A stretch of 42,678 nucleotides of DNA from Alphaproteobacteria bacterium (lineage in GTDB: Bacteria > Pseudomonadota > Alphaproteobacteria > Bin65), in assembly GCA_021776685.1 (NCBI GenBank), contig JAJFFJ010000123.1, positions 1 through 42,678 on the forward strand, written 5' to 3'. A program made the position numbers and the translations under genes. The notes below the pieces were generated by a model. It made no database searches. It was not told the origin of the DNA and saw only the letters and a list, made by a program, of their open reading frames with translations. Of this stretch, positions 3,819-13,169 are shown piece after piece. Positions within the stretch are counted from its first letter, which is position 1; the number at the start of each line of letters is the position of its first letter.

Positions 3819-4583
3819 ATGAGAAATCCAGCCTCTGTTCTGATCACCGGCGCTTCAAGCGGCATCGGCCTGGCCCTGGCCGAGGTCTATGCGGCCAGCG
3901 GCTGCCGGCTGGAGCTGACTGGGCGTCACATGGCCCGCCTGGAGCCAGTTGCCGCCGCCTGCCGCGCGCTAGGCGGCGCGCCGACCTGTCATGAAGTGGA
4001 TGTGGATGATCGCGCCGCCATGCAGGCACTGTTCGACCGGATCAGCCCGCCCGATCTGACCATCGCCAATGCCGGCATTTCTATAGGCACCAGTGGCGGC
4101 CGCAACCGGGAGGAAATCGACCGAAAGATACTCCGAACCAACCTGGACGGCGTCGTCAATACGATCTACCCGGCCATCGCCGCGCTCACCGCCAGACCCC
4201 GTAGAGAGCCCGAACCACGGGGCCAAATCGCCATCATGTCATCCCTTGCCACGTTTAATGGCTATCCCGGTGCAGCGGCCTATGGTGCCAGCAAGGCGGC
4301 GGTTCGGTCACTTGGGGAAGCCTTACGGGCGGAGCGCTACAGGGACGGGATCGAAATATGCGTGATTTGCCCCGGATTCATACGCAGCAAGATTACGGAT
4401 ACCAACGACTTCCGGATGCCATTTTTTATGGAAGCGAGCCGTGCAGCACGGATCATTCAGAAGGGTTTGGCGCGCAACCGCGGGCGCATTGCCTTCCCAT
4501 GGCCAACCTACTGGATGGCCCGCCTGGCGGGAGTTTTACCCAGCGGGTTACGCGACGCACTGGTTCGTCGTATGAAATCGTAA
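3819..4583 (+). CDS. SDR-family NAD(P)-dependent oxidoreductase
   Basis: Classical short-chain dehydrogenase/reductase of 254 residues. Visible features: TGASSGIG cofactor loop at residues 10-17, IANAGIS (NAG motif), a serine in IMSSLATF, the catalytic Y-G-A-S-K, and CPGFIRSKIT after strand 6. The C-terminus (GRIAFPWPTYWMARLAGVLPSGL) is hydrophobic and resembles the membrane-associated tail of SDRs that act on lipid-like or ketosphinganine-type substrates; that comparison is inference and the substrate cannot be assigned. It starts 129 bases from the divergent yicC. Together with the next gene it forms a plus-strand pair interrupting the yicC/mltG neighbourhood, so the two may act together. 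Confidence 0.88.
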   Translation: MRNPASVLITGASSGIGLALAEVYAASGCRLELTGRHMARLEPVAAACRALGGAPTCHEVDVDDRAAMQALFDRISPPDLTIANAGISIGTSGGRNREEIDRKILRTNLDGVVNTIYPAIAALTARPRREPEPRGQIAIMSSLATFNGYPGAAAYGASKAAVRSLGEALRAERYRDGIEICVICPGFIRSKITDTNDFRMPFFMEASRAARIIQKGLARNRGRIAFPWPTYWMARLAGVLPSGLRDALVRRMKS

Positions 4584-4723
4584 TTGGCAACCCTTGGCGC
4601 GGACGCACGGTGTTTACACAAACTTAACCACCGTCGTTAATTCTCTGCTTGCCCGCGGTCAAATCCGCATTAAAAATATCGAACTACTATCTTTATCCTC
4701 TTCCACTACCGGGGCGAATCACC

Positions 4724-6394
4724 TTGGATCTGCTAGCTGAATGGGTCTGGCAAGCTCTGTCGCTGTTCGCCGGAACCTTTATCCATGAAGATGCCGCCGT
4801 CCTGGCTGGCGCCTATCTCGTCGTCAACAAGGGCCTGCCGGCGGGCCTCGCCTTTGCTGCGCTGGTTGTCGGCGTTATCTGTGGCGATCTGCTGTTTTAC
4901 GCCATGGGCCGCGTCGCGCGCCGGGTGAAATGGTTGAACGGCGTTTCACGCCGGGTGGAGCAATCCCGATTCGGCGACGTGCTTGACCGCCGTCTGGTCC
5001 TGGCCATTGCGGCCGCCCGCATCATGCCAGCCATGGCATTTCCGCTCTTTGCGGCCTGTGGTGTTTCGCGGATCGGCATTGGGCGCTTCCTGCTGGCGTC
5101 AATCGCTACCGCAATCCTTTATGTGGCGCTTGTCTTCGGCCTGATGCTGGCCTTCGGCAAATCGATGCCAAACTGGGCCAGCAACTATGGCTGGGTCGGT
5201 ATTGGTGTCCTGGTTCTGGGCGTCTGGGTGCTGCGCCGCTGGTGGGCGAGTTCGAAGGACAAGGCAGAGGATATCGCCGCGAACCGAAAATACCTTACCG
5301 TGCACAAGGGCATGCCTGCATTGCCGTCCGACCGGATGCGCGTATCCTTGCAGGAGCGAATCCCGACCTACATTTTCTACATGCCACAATTTACCCAGTG
5401 GTTTCTGCTGGCATTGCGGCACGGCGGGCTGACGGTGCCCACGCTGGCCAATCCCCATATTCCAACCGGTGGCCTGACGGGCGAGTCCAAGACCGACTGC
5501 ATGGAAATGGTCGACGGTTCCATGCGGCAGTATCTTTCCCGGACAGCAGGTGTGGAGGGCCGCGCGCACGATGAAGACCCGGACGTGCTGTTCACCCGCG
5601 CACGCCTGGCCGCAGCGAACGCAGGCATCGAATATCCCCTGGTGGTCAAACCCGACATGGGCTGGCGCGGCTGGGGCGTCCGCCGGATTGAGAATGACGA
5701 CGAGTTGCGCGACTATACTCGCGACTATCCTGCGGACGTGCGCATGCTGGTGCAGGATTACTCCGACTGGCATGGCGAAGCTGCGATTTTCTATGCGCGG
5801 CATCCCGGTCAGGCGACCGGCGAAATCTTCTCCCTGACCTTCCGCTATTTCCCCTTCGTTATCGGCGACGGGGAAAGCACGCTGGAAGATCTTATCCTGG
5901 CCAACAGCCGCATGCGCTGGAAGAAAAAGGTCCTGATGGACCAGCATCGCGAGCGGCTTGATTGGGTTCCCGCTGAAGGCGAGGAATTCCGCCTTGCGAC
6001 CGTGGGCAGCAACCGGGTCGGAGGCCTCTATATCGATGGCGGCAGCTATGTCACACCCGCATTGACTGATCGGATCGAAAGCCTCGCCAAAGCGATGCCG
6101 GAGTTTCATTTTGGCCGTTTCGATGTGCGATTTCGCACCATTGGTGCGCTTCAGGCAGGCGAGGATTTCACCGTGGTGGAGATCAACGGCGCTGGCTCGG
6201 AAGCCGTGCACATATGGGACCCAGACGTGCCGTTGACGGAAGTGTTCCGGGTTTTGCTCCAGCAACAGTCGATTATGTTCCGGATTGGTGCGGCCAACCG
6301 CAAACGCGGATTCAAGGCCATGAGCACGTGGGAATTGCTCAGATACGGTCACCGGCAGAACAGCCTGGTGGAAAACTTTCCGCCATCCAGCTGA
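4724..6394 (+). CDS. DedA/VTT-domain membrane protein fused to an ATP-grasp ligase domain
   Basis: A two-domain protein of about 556 residues. Residues 1-175 look like a DedA (VTT/SNARE-associated) transporter: FIHEDAAVLAGAYLV, the re-entrant region with GDLLFYAMGR at 54-63, ARIMPAMAFPLFAACG at 98-113, then two hydrophobic helices ending about residue 170. Residues 210-530 look like an ATP-grasp enzyme: YPLVVKPDMGWRGWGV (Lys309 and a glycine-rich loop at 304-319), FDVRF at 466-470 and VEINGAGSEA at 485-494 supplying the usual Asp/Glu/Asn metal ligands. DedA proteins are linked to lipid-carrier or phospholipid flipping; ATP-grasp enzymes join a carboxylate to an amine or thiol. A lipid-linked substrate is therefore plausible but unproven. 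I chose TTG 4724, with GGGGCG seven bases upstream; an in-frame TTG at 4649 would add 25 residues that do not look like a DedA N-terminus. Confidence 0.8.
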   Translation: MDLLAEWVWQALSLFAGTFIHEDAAVLAGAYLVVNKGLPAGLAFAALVVGVICGDLLFYAMGRVARRVKWLNGVSRRVEQSRFGDVLDRRLVLAIAAARIMPAMAFPLFAACGVSRIGIGRFLLASIATAILYVALVFGLMLAFGKSMPNWASNYGWVGIGVLVLGVWVLRRWWASSKDKAEDIAANRKYLTVHKGMPALPSDRMRVSLQERIPTYIFYMPQFTQWFLLALRHGGLTVPTLANPHIPTGGLTGESKTDCMEMVDGSMRQYLSRTAGVEGRAHDEDPDVLFTRARLAAANAGIEYPLVVKPDMGWRGWGVRRIENDDELRDYTRDYPADVRMLVQDYSDWHGEAAIFYARHPGQATGEIFSLTFRYFPFVIGDGESTLEDLILANSRMRWKKKVLMDQHRERLDWVPAEGEEFRLATVGSNRVGGLYIDGGSYVTPALTDRIESLAKAMPEFHFGRFDVRFRTIGALQAGEDFTVVEINGAGSEAVHIWDPDVPLTEVFRVLLQQQSIMFRIGAANRKRGFKAMSTWELLRYGHRQNSLVENFPPSS

Positions 6395-11523: not shown

Positions 11524-12153
11524 ATGCCACTCTACGAAAGCGTGTTCATCGCGCGTCAAGATATCAATGCCGGCCAGGTGGATGGCCTGACCGAGCAATT
11601 TTCCAACATCATCACTGAATCTGGCGGCAAGATCGAAAAGACCGAGTATTGGGGTCTCAAGAATCTCGCCTATCGCATCAAGAAGAACCGCAAGGGCCAC
11701 TATGTGCTCCTGCATGTTGAAGCGCCCCACGAGGCCATCTCCGAGATGGAGCGCAATATGCGGCTCAACGAAGATGTGCTGCGCTACCTGACGCTGAAGA
11801 TCGAGGAGATCGAAGAAGGTCCCTCAATCATGATGCAGAACAAGGGCCGCGAAAGAGAACGTGGTGACCGGGATCGGGGCGACCGAGGTGATCGGGGCGA
11901 CAGAGGTGACCGGGGCGAAGCCAAGAGCGCCGATAGCAATGCGCCGGCTGAAACGCCAGCCGCTGAAACGTCGGAAGAGAAGCCGGCTGCAGCGCCTGCT
12001 GACGCGCCCGCCGCTGAGACACCGGCCGCAACGCCTGCTGAAGCGCCGGCCGCTGAGACGGCTGATGAAAAGCCGGCCACCGCGCCTGCCGAGACACCGG
12101 CTGAAACGCCCGCAGAGGCAACTGCTGAAACCACGACCGAAGGAGAAAAATAA
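11524..12153 (+). CDS. rpsF: 30S ribosomal protein bS6 with long repetitive tail
   Basis: Ribosomal protein that binds 16S rRNA as a pair with bS18. Residues 1-100 are a normal bS6: [13 protein letters not shown], the [22 protein letters not shown] core and [15 protein letters not shown]. The protein then runs to 209 residues, roughly double the family norm. Residues 115-131 are a tandem D-R-G repeat encoded by imperfect 9-base units (11866-11916), and residues 139-205 are an Ala/Glu/Pro/Thr repeat. Such tails are known in alphaproteobacterial bS6 but their length varies. GAAAGGGG at 11507-11514 is the ribosome binding site. The stop overlaps the rpsR start by one base (TAATG). Confidence 0.95.
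11866..11916 (+). repeat. 9-base tandem repeats encoding (Asp-Arg-Gly)n in bS6
   Basis: Imperfect in-frame 9-base units of the type GAC-CGG-GGC encode residues 115-131 of bS6. Unit copies differ by single bases. Being a multiple of three, copy-number change would keep the frame. Confidence 0.8.
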
Positions 12154-12404: not shown

Positions 12405-13169
12405 ATGCAAGTCATCCTGCTCGAAAGAATTGAAAAGCTCGGCCAGATGGGCGACGTGGTCAACGTCAAGTCCGGCTACGCCCGCAACTACCTGCTGCCC
12501 AAAAAGAAGGCTCTTCGGGCTACCGGGAGCAATCTTGCCGTCTTCGAAACGCAACGGTCCCAGCTAGAGGCGGAGAACCTGAAGCGCCGCAGCGATGCGG
12601 AAGAAGTGTCAGAGAAGATGGACGACGCCTCGATCGTCGTGATTCGCTCTGCGGGCGACAGTGGCCAACTCTACGGTTCCGTTTCCAGCCGCGACATTGC
12701 CGAGGGCCTCACCGAAGGCGGCTATACCGTCAACCGCAATCAGGTGCAGATCGACCGGCCGATCAAGGAGATTGGCATCCACGACATTCGCATCGTGCTA
12801 CATCCCGAAGTCAGCATCACCGCACATGTCAACGTCGCCCGTTCTCAGGAAGAGGCGGACACCCAGGCAGAACGCGCTGCCCGGGGCGAGGATCCGGTGA
12901 TGACCACGGCCGAACAGGAAGCCGCCGAAGATATGGCCGCGCCGGAAGTGGAAGAGTTGCTGGAAGAGGATCAGGTCGAAGCCTTCCAGACCCGCCTGGA
13001 TGAGGACGAGGCCGCAGAAGCCCAAGCCGAAGCCGATGCTATCGCCGCGGGAGACGCTCGGGCAGCAAAAGCGGCAGAAGCTGCAGAAGCTGCGGAAAAG
13101 GCAGATGCTGAAGCCCCAGCAGAGGGCGCCGATGCGGAAGAAGAAAACAAGGAACCGGACGAGAGTTGA
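12405..13169 (+). CDS. rplI: 50S ribosomal protein bL9 with acidic C-terminal extension
   Basis: bL9 binds 23S rRNA near the L1 stalk and its extended shape limits frameshifting in crowded polysomes. Residues 1-148 are a standard bL9: [32 protein letters not shown], the long connecting helix, and the C-terminal lobe with [14 protein letters not shown] and [25 protein letters not shown]. About 105 extra residues follow, rich in Glu, Ala and Asp with [18 protein letters not shown]-like runs, which are probably disordered or helical. Extensions exist in alphaproteobacterial bL9, though this one is long. A strong terminator follows 36 bases after the stop. Confidence 0.96.

Follow-up and report, generated by a model that had tools for sequence, protein, structure and literature searches.

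A DedA-type membrane domain fused to an ATP-grasp ligase, genomically linked to ornithine-lipid synthesis and possibly an analogue of MprF

In a contig of 42,678 nucleotides from an alphaproteobacterial genome (NCBI GenBank assembly GCA_021776685.1, contig JAJFFJ010000123.1; the whole stretch is called the window below), one gene at positions 4724 to 6394 encodes a protein that joins a DedA/VTT membrane domain to an ATP-grasp ligase domain. We found here that the ligase gene is physically linked to genes for the synthases of ornithine lipid (OL), a membrane lipid free of phosphorus, and shows a near-strict genomic dependency on them. On this basis we favour, at roughly 55%, a reading in which the fusion protein modifies OL or a close aminolipid by amide-forming ligation and helps to translocate it. 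ATP-grasp ligases use ATP to convert a carboxylate into an acyl phosphate, which is then joined to an amine, and OL offers one free carboxylate and one free amine. In the proposed mechanism, the cytosolic ATP-grasp half would activate a carboxylate with ATP to give the acyl phosphate, most likely at the free alpha-carboxylate of the ornithine head group. This intermediate would then be joined to the amine of a small molecule, not fixed by our data but possibly taurine, to give an amide-extended head group, and the DedA half would move OL, or its modified form, from one leaflet of the inner membrane to the other. A preliminary description of the gene had proposed that ligation, taking place at the membrane, modifies a substrate bound to membrane lipid; the linkage to OlsB and OlsF and the dependency on them lend this idea strong indirect support. 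Our data show both domains, the intact active site, the pairing of the halves and the OL linkage, while the substrate, the bond formed, the activity and the transport step are things that we infer.

The gene is a single open frame that starts with TTG at 4724, encodes 556 amino acids and ends with its stop at 6394; an alternative TTG at 4649 would give a protein of 581 amino acids. The fused architecture recurs in independent genomes and 12 fused proteins align end to end, and the fusion is therefore neither an assembly error nor a chance event. Long open stretches on the reverse strand over the same positions (4724 to 6394) were also considered, but such stretches are common in high-GC DNA and none is supported as a gene. 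The features of the fused gene are as follows.

4724 to 6394, forward strand: coding sequence of the DedA/VTT and ATP-grasp fusion (full-length alignment with homologous fused proteins)
4727 to 5254, forward strand: DedA/VTT half, residues 2-177 (VTT_dom match, E 1.5e-7; AlphaFold2 models with a predicted local distance difference test score, pLDDT, of 93-94; clusters in a tree with operon DedA partners)
4787 to 4792, forward strand: E22-D23, invariant in the aligned DedA halves (alignment A4, 29 sequences)
5018 to 5029, forward strand: R99 to P102 in the second hairpin, invariant (alignments including A4)
5255 to 5347, forward strand: linker, residues 178-208, with basic residues right behind the last helix (low pLDDT at 179-181; sequence)
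5348 to 6373, forward strand: ATP-grasp half, residues 209-550 (profile match to cyanophycin synthetases, 1e-11; Foldseek, 1e-8)
5648 to 5650, forward strand: K309 of VVKPD, the ATP-binding lysine, invariant (alignments of relatives)
5777 to 5779, forward strand: E352 of GEAAIFY, invariant (alignments of relatives)
5864 to 5872, forward strand: G381-D382-G383 of VIGDGES, invariant, pairing with VVGDGYST of CphA2 (alignments)
6116 to 6124, forward strand: R465 and D467 of GRFDV, metal site, invariant (alignments of relatives)
6179 to 6187, forward strand: E486 and N488 of EING, metal site, invariant (alignments of relatives)

The DedA half, which had been placed at residues 1-175, spans residues 2-177. 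The VTT_dom model (PF09335) matches residues 31-137 at 32.3 bits against a cut-off of 33.9 in the protein scan, and at 35.4 bits, above that cut-off, at the same place in the genome scan; stand-alone DedA relatives from operons score 48 bits. The AlphaFold2 model of the fusion protein has a pLDDT of 93.1 and a predicted template-modelling score of 0.78, and in the models the helices of this half are broken at residue 21 and near residue 101, as would fit a DedA fold with its two re-entrant hairpins. Across the 29 sequences of alignment A4, the columns E22, D23, G54, D55, R99 and P102 are invariant. A Foldseek search of the DedA half against solved structures (PDB) gave no significant match, and the best match among viral models, the only plausible one, was to a SNARE-associated (VTT) protein (probability 0.89, E 0.29). 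Since no solved DedA structure was matched, the DedA assignment rests on sequence and motifs. The VTT domain, the predicted helical hairpins and the conserved acidic and arginine residues are all held in common with the DedA lipid transporters UptA, PetA and TMEM41B. In the DedA tree, the fused and operon copies form one group, and most other DedA proteins encoded in these genomes fall outside it; the grouped copies are a DedA subfamily of their own, specifically paired with the ligase. Unlike those transporters, this subfamily is tied to an ATP-grasp gene throughout the genomes examined save for one additional member, a stand-alone copy in the window's own genome. That copy lies on another contig (C97, L140:1861-2478, reverse strand), where it adjoins a lytic transglycosylase gene and has no ligase beside it.

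The ATP-grasp half is matched only faintly by single models (ATP-grasp_4 at 0.036 and the cyanophycin synthetase model TIGR02068 at 1e-4 in Pfam and NCBIfam scans), but a profile built from 21 family sequences finds the cyanophycin synthetase CphA2 (8fxh) at 1e-11, with GshF and Ddl more weakly. In agreement with this, a Foldseek search with the AlphaFold2 model gives cyanophycin synthetase 7ta5 at 1e-8, and D-Ala-D-Ala ligase forms a second group of matches. CphA1 and CphA2 are thus the closest solved relatives by profile and by fold, although the likeness has limits: about 200 residues align by profile, the fold match is at 18-20% identity, and the TIGR02068 score of 20.4 bits concerns the ATP-grasp part only and compares with a cut-off of 850 for the full-length equivalog. 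In the alignment with CphA2, the VVKPD, GDG-ST-LI, metal D and E-N motifs of the fusion ligase all have counterparts, and K309, E352, G381-G383, R465, D467, E486 and N488 are the same in every aligned relative. Because every catalytic residue is conserved, the ligase is predicted to be active, and on its sequence this half should be a working enzyme. The motifs singled out in the preliminary description, K309, FDVRF (466-470) and EINGAGSE (486-493), are exactly placed. The profile searches suggested there for both halves found a VTT (DedA) domain and an ATP-grasp fold, and none of the outcomes named as refuting the description came about. The basic residues that follow the last helix suggest that the ATP-grasp half is cytoplasmic. 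Public databases call the separate ligase 'D-alanine--D-alanine ligase' (e.g. NZ_CP114585.1 N7E60_RS14150) or hypothetical. The former name is probably wrong, because a Vibrio homologue falls below the cut-offs of that family (16 against 245.65 for TIGR01205, and 22.3 against 24 bits for PF07478); for the window protein, the Pfam scan reported no PF07478 match. The fused protein appears as 'VTT domain-containing protein' (Azospirillum sp. B510, WP_247894514.1; A. lipoferum 4B, WP_244442665.1).

A scan of genome contigs with the single protein as query returned no relatives, whereas an alignment-based scan of 84,980 species genomes returned 570, of which the best 80 were fetched. In whole-genome searches, many alphaproteobacteria proved to encode the two halves in separate genes side by side, and others in one fused gene. 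A near-complete ligase was present at 101 loci, chosen by similarity to the window; of these, 58 had DedA adjacent, 24 had it fused and 19 had none within a few hundred bases, a few of these 'alone' cases lying at contig ends. The manner of choice inflates the fused share. The family occurs in Proteobacteria, Bacteroidales, Lentisphaerae and Kiritimatiellae. In the ligase tree, members of the main fused clade come from Alpha- and Betaproteobacteria, Bacteroidales, Lentisphaerae and Kiritimatiellae, and the nearest relative of this clade is one without DedA. The fused label has to change four times on this tree, and one fusion (L044 and L045) is placed at a distance from the main group of fused proteins, which puts the number of separate fusions at two or more. 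Four further loci (L074, L080, L088 and L122) were entertained as fusions and not counted, as their frames extend upstream of the ligase with no in-frame DedA match. What had been noticed in one gene is an operon pair that became fused, and no one-off. Both domains are individually common, and one might suppose that they were joined by accident with no mechanistic coupling; with adjacent genes in 58 of the 101 loci, fusion in 24, at least two separate fusion events and a distinct DedA subfamily as partner, the conserved pair contradicts this explanation, and we regard it as very improbable.

The substrate is suggested by the genes that accompany the ligase. Of 103 loci, 37 have near the ligase a gene for OlsB, for OlsF or for an OlsF-N-type or related acyltransferase, usually on the strand of the ligase, and in several the two genes overlap or lie no more than about 60 bp apart: 2 bp in L113, 4 bp in L118, 8 bp in L099, 10 bp in L132 and 60 bp in L082, with overlapping genes in L086 and L096. 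The arrangements differ between lineages. In some Marinomonas and Lysobacterales the OlsF gene follows right after the ligase (4-60 bp), and in Burkholderiales, Ramlibacter and Variovorax OlsB touches the ligase gene (2-16 bp or overlapping); in the fused locus L067, the fusion gene is 16 bp downstream of olsB. In Vibrio, Marinomonas, Endozoicomonas and Grimontia, operons run from DedA and ATP-grasp through small genes (a family without a strong Pfam match, TANGO2/NRDE, YHS and DoxX) to a bifunctional acyltransferase, which matches OlsF at 414 bits against a strict cut-off of 620. In V. cholerae this OlsF would correspond to VCA0646, to judge by the length of that gene and by where primers match in V. 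metoecus and V. mimicus. A 2025 study shows VCA0646 to be an OL synthase, one that yields OL in E. coli and is required for OL at low salinity (PMC12186959). The OlsF operon, seen here in L128 and L091, would correspond to VCA0646-0649 of V. cholerae, and the primer positions point to VCA0647 as the YHS-domain protein and to VCA0649 as the gene that adjoins the ATP-grasp gene in relatives. A 2024 report describes vca0646-0649 as an operon of unknown function that is linked to cell death and under quorum-sensing control (PMC11573629).

The dependency extends beyond the immediate neighbourhood. In all 38 searchable genomes that have the ligase but no such neighbour, a PF13444 N-acyltransferase is encoded elsewhere, at E<=1e-22 in 36 of them. 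In an alphaproteobacterial sample, PF13444 was found in 24 of 25 genomes with the ligase as against 159 of 264 others (Fisher p 1e-4, not corrected for relatedness). About half of sequenced bacterial species are said to form OL (PMC12186959). The window's genome itself has olsB and olsA side by side (contig C41; 300 and 235 bits). The OL synthases and modifiers (OlsBA, OlsF and OlsH/OlsI, with the hydroxylases and the N-methyltransferase) are the genomic partners of the fusion, and their product is its predicted substrate.

Two other assignments have to be set against this pattern. The ATP-grasp enzyme could take the place of OlsB by coupling a free 3-hydroxy fatty acid directly to an amino acid, the product being an N-acyl amino acid (a lyso-aminolipid), with a neighbouring O-acyltransferase completing the lipid and DedA moving it. 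Four alphaproteobacterial metagenome-assembled genomes (L064, L072, L081 and L102) would fit this scheme, as an OlsF-N/GlsA-type O-acyltransferase adjoins or lies near their ligase with no adjacent N-acyltransferase, and there are ATP-grasp enzymes that turn fatty acids into acyl-amino acids, as with acyl-histidine in Legionella (cited in PMC11631085). A ligase that replaced OlsB would, however, be expected to have no need of OlsB or OlsF, whereas nearly every ligase genome has one of them and many operons hold both enzymes; the genomic dependency speaks against the scheme, and we consider it unlikely. The pair could instead have a different membrane lipid or carrier as its substrate, for instance phosphatidylethanolamine, sugars linked to undecaprenyl phosphate, or lipid A, with shared stress regulation as its sole tie to OL. 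Other DedA proteins move undecaprenyl phosphate or phosphatidylethanolamine (PMC12893004), the latter being carried by the bacterial DedA protein PetA (cited in PMC12893004), and weak hints come from the undecaprenyl-diphosphatase genes near the pair in some Acetobacteraceae and from the glycosyltransferases and methyltransferases of some alphaproteobacterial loci. Shared regulation does not readily account for a linkage to OL synthases that recurs in several unrelated arrangements, including overlapping genes, or for the genome-wide dependency on PF13444, and a different lipid seems to us a decidedly poor prospect.

If OL is the substrate, the same genomic evidence would also agree with the reverse chemistry, in which a free amino acid is activated by the ligase at its carboxylate and then coupled to OL through the lipid's delta-amino group, and DedA moves the product. 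This would be aminoacylation, the outcome closest to that of MprF, and D-Ala-D-Ala ligase-type ATP-grasp enzymes, the second group of structural matches, do activate small amino acids. The closest enzymes by sequence and fold are instead the cyanophycin synthetases, which make amides on carboxylates and extend the carboxyl end of a larger substrate. Furthermore, the known extended OL, an ornithine-taurine lipid, requires bonding to an amine donor, as expected for reaction at the carboxylate, and we think aminoacylation improbable. This lipid, cerilipin, is found in Gluconobacter cerinus (PMC4484230, PMC6669457), and taurine transfer is listed among the modifications of OL (PMC12493201). The direction of extension in cyanophycin synthetases and the cerilipin precedent are the reasons for which amide formation on the OL carboxylate is favoured. 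A carboxylate-amine ligase with OL as substrate could yield cerilipin, whose link to the fusion gene is one of chemical analogy. The DedA/ATP-grasp pair is present in Acetobacteraceae and in Acidiphilium, and lipoamino acids have been reported from Acidiphilium organovorum, going by a title in the references of PMC6669457.

Several observations weigh against the modification and transport of OL by the fusion protein. Only one of the 24 fused loci (L067) has an adjoining OL synthase gene, and olsBA of the window's genome is on a different contig from the fusion gene. Many of the 103 loci come from close relatives (Vibrio, Azospirillum), so that raw locus counts overstate their independence. Two ligase genomes (G320 and G331) have only weak PF13444 matches, and one in the alphaproteobacterial sample (G231, 57% complete) has none. 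The sister clade without DedA shows that the ligase can work with no DedA gene adjacent to it. No taurine gene was seen beside the family, and the known lipid substrates of DedA proteins are phospholipids or undecaprenyl phosphate, not OL. The assignment of a substrate and a transport role to the fusion draws on genomic and sequence evidence.

The nearest functional parallel is MprF, the lysyl/alanyl-phosphatidylglycerol synthase-flippase, which likewise combines, in one chain with the transport domain first, a lipid-moving membrane domain and a soluble enzyme that alters the head group, these roles being predicted in the case of the fusion. The parts differ. The fusion has a DedA membrane half and an ATP-grasp ligase where the enzyme of MprF is a tRNA-dependent aminoacyltransferase, no MprF transferase domain was found in it even at E 10 (Pfam, NCBIfam), and its predicted lipid is OL in place of phosphatidylglycerol. 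The fusion protein would thus be a functional analogue of MprF built from unrelated parts, and not a member of that family. MprF shows that a modifier and a scramblase in a single chain are a working design, and hairpin-type transport domains are said to be common to DedA and MprF (PMC11980842); a DedA protein fused to the soluble domain of MprF has also been reported (cited in PMC11980842). Tentatively, and with clear reservations, we extend the proposal to a more specific one: that an ATP-grasp ligase adds taurine or another amine to the OL carboxylate and is coupled or fused to a dedicated DedA scramblase, an MprF-like arrangement for phosphorus-free lipids that arose independently and is found in several phyla.

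A literature search that covered few subscription papers found no relevant combination of DedA and ATP-grasp, and no described family with this architecture, in keeping with the preliminary description, which knew of no characterised example; it likewise found no association of DedA with OL, no gene for the taurine extension of OL and no OL transporter. The halves belong to known superfamilies, and it is their combination that would work in the manner of MprF. For the two missing functions, the taurine extension and the transport of OL, the conserved DedA and ATP-grasp unit with its ties to OL synthases offers a concrete candidate. If our proposal is correct, evolution has more than once combined head-group modification and lipid movement in a single chain, drawing on unrelated parts, and a function could be given to many entries now named 'VTT domain-containing protein' or, probably wrongly, 'D-alanine--D-alanine ligase'.

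Some features of the neighbourhoods deserve mention in their own right. In many alpha- and betaproteobacteria (L070, L115, L077, L064 and others) the pair is directly preceded by an alpha/beta hydrolase gene (cluster c7), and OlsI, the planctomycete O-acyltransferase of OL synthesis, belongs to the alpha/beta-hydrolase superfamily too (PMC12493201). Undecaprenyl-diphosphatase (UppP) genes occur near the pair in Acetobacteraceae and relatives (L126:9681-10523; L043, L074, L089 and L104). In loci of the DedA-less sister clade (L094:6624-9026, L078, L079, L113, L124, L041 and L048) the ligase is accompanied by a GntA-like heme N-hydroxylase, a UAAP/DUF1989 protein or both, and in some cases by OlsB; these loci possibly represent a different aminolipid head-group pathway. 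Neighbours of the main fused clade (DsrE, MurB-like, TrpA, Hsp20, YicC, TetR, DAGK and aldehyde dehydrogenase) share no common theme.

Within the window, one further gene stands directly upstream of the fusion and is possibly co-transcribed with it.

3819 to 4583, forward strand: oxidoreductase of the short-chain dehydrogenase/reductase (SDR) family (Pfam and NCBIfam scans)

This gene was considered as a general partner of the fusion and set aside, as it takes the same position only in a sister genome (54% identity); an SDR gene beside the Salinivibrio pair is no evident orthologue of it (26%, E 1e-5). Further along the window, the genes at 11524-12153 and 12405-13169, whose products are probably ribosomal proteins S6 and L9, encode unusually long low-complexity tails (RGD repeats; Ala-Pro-Glu-rich).
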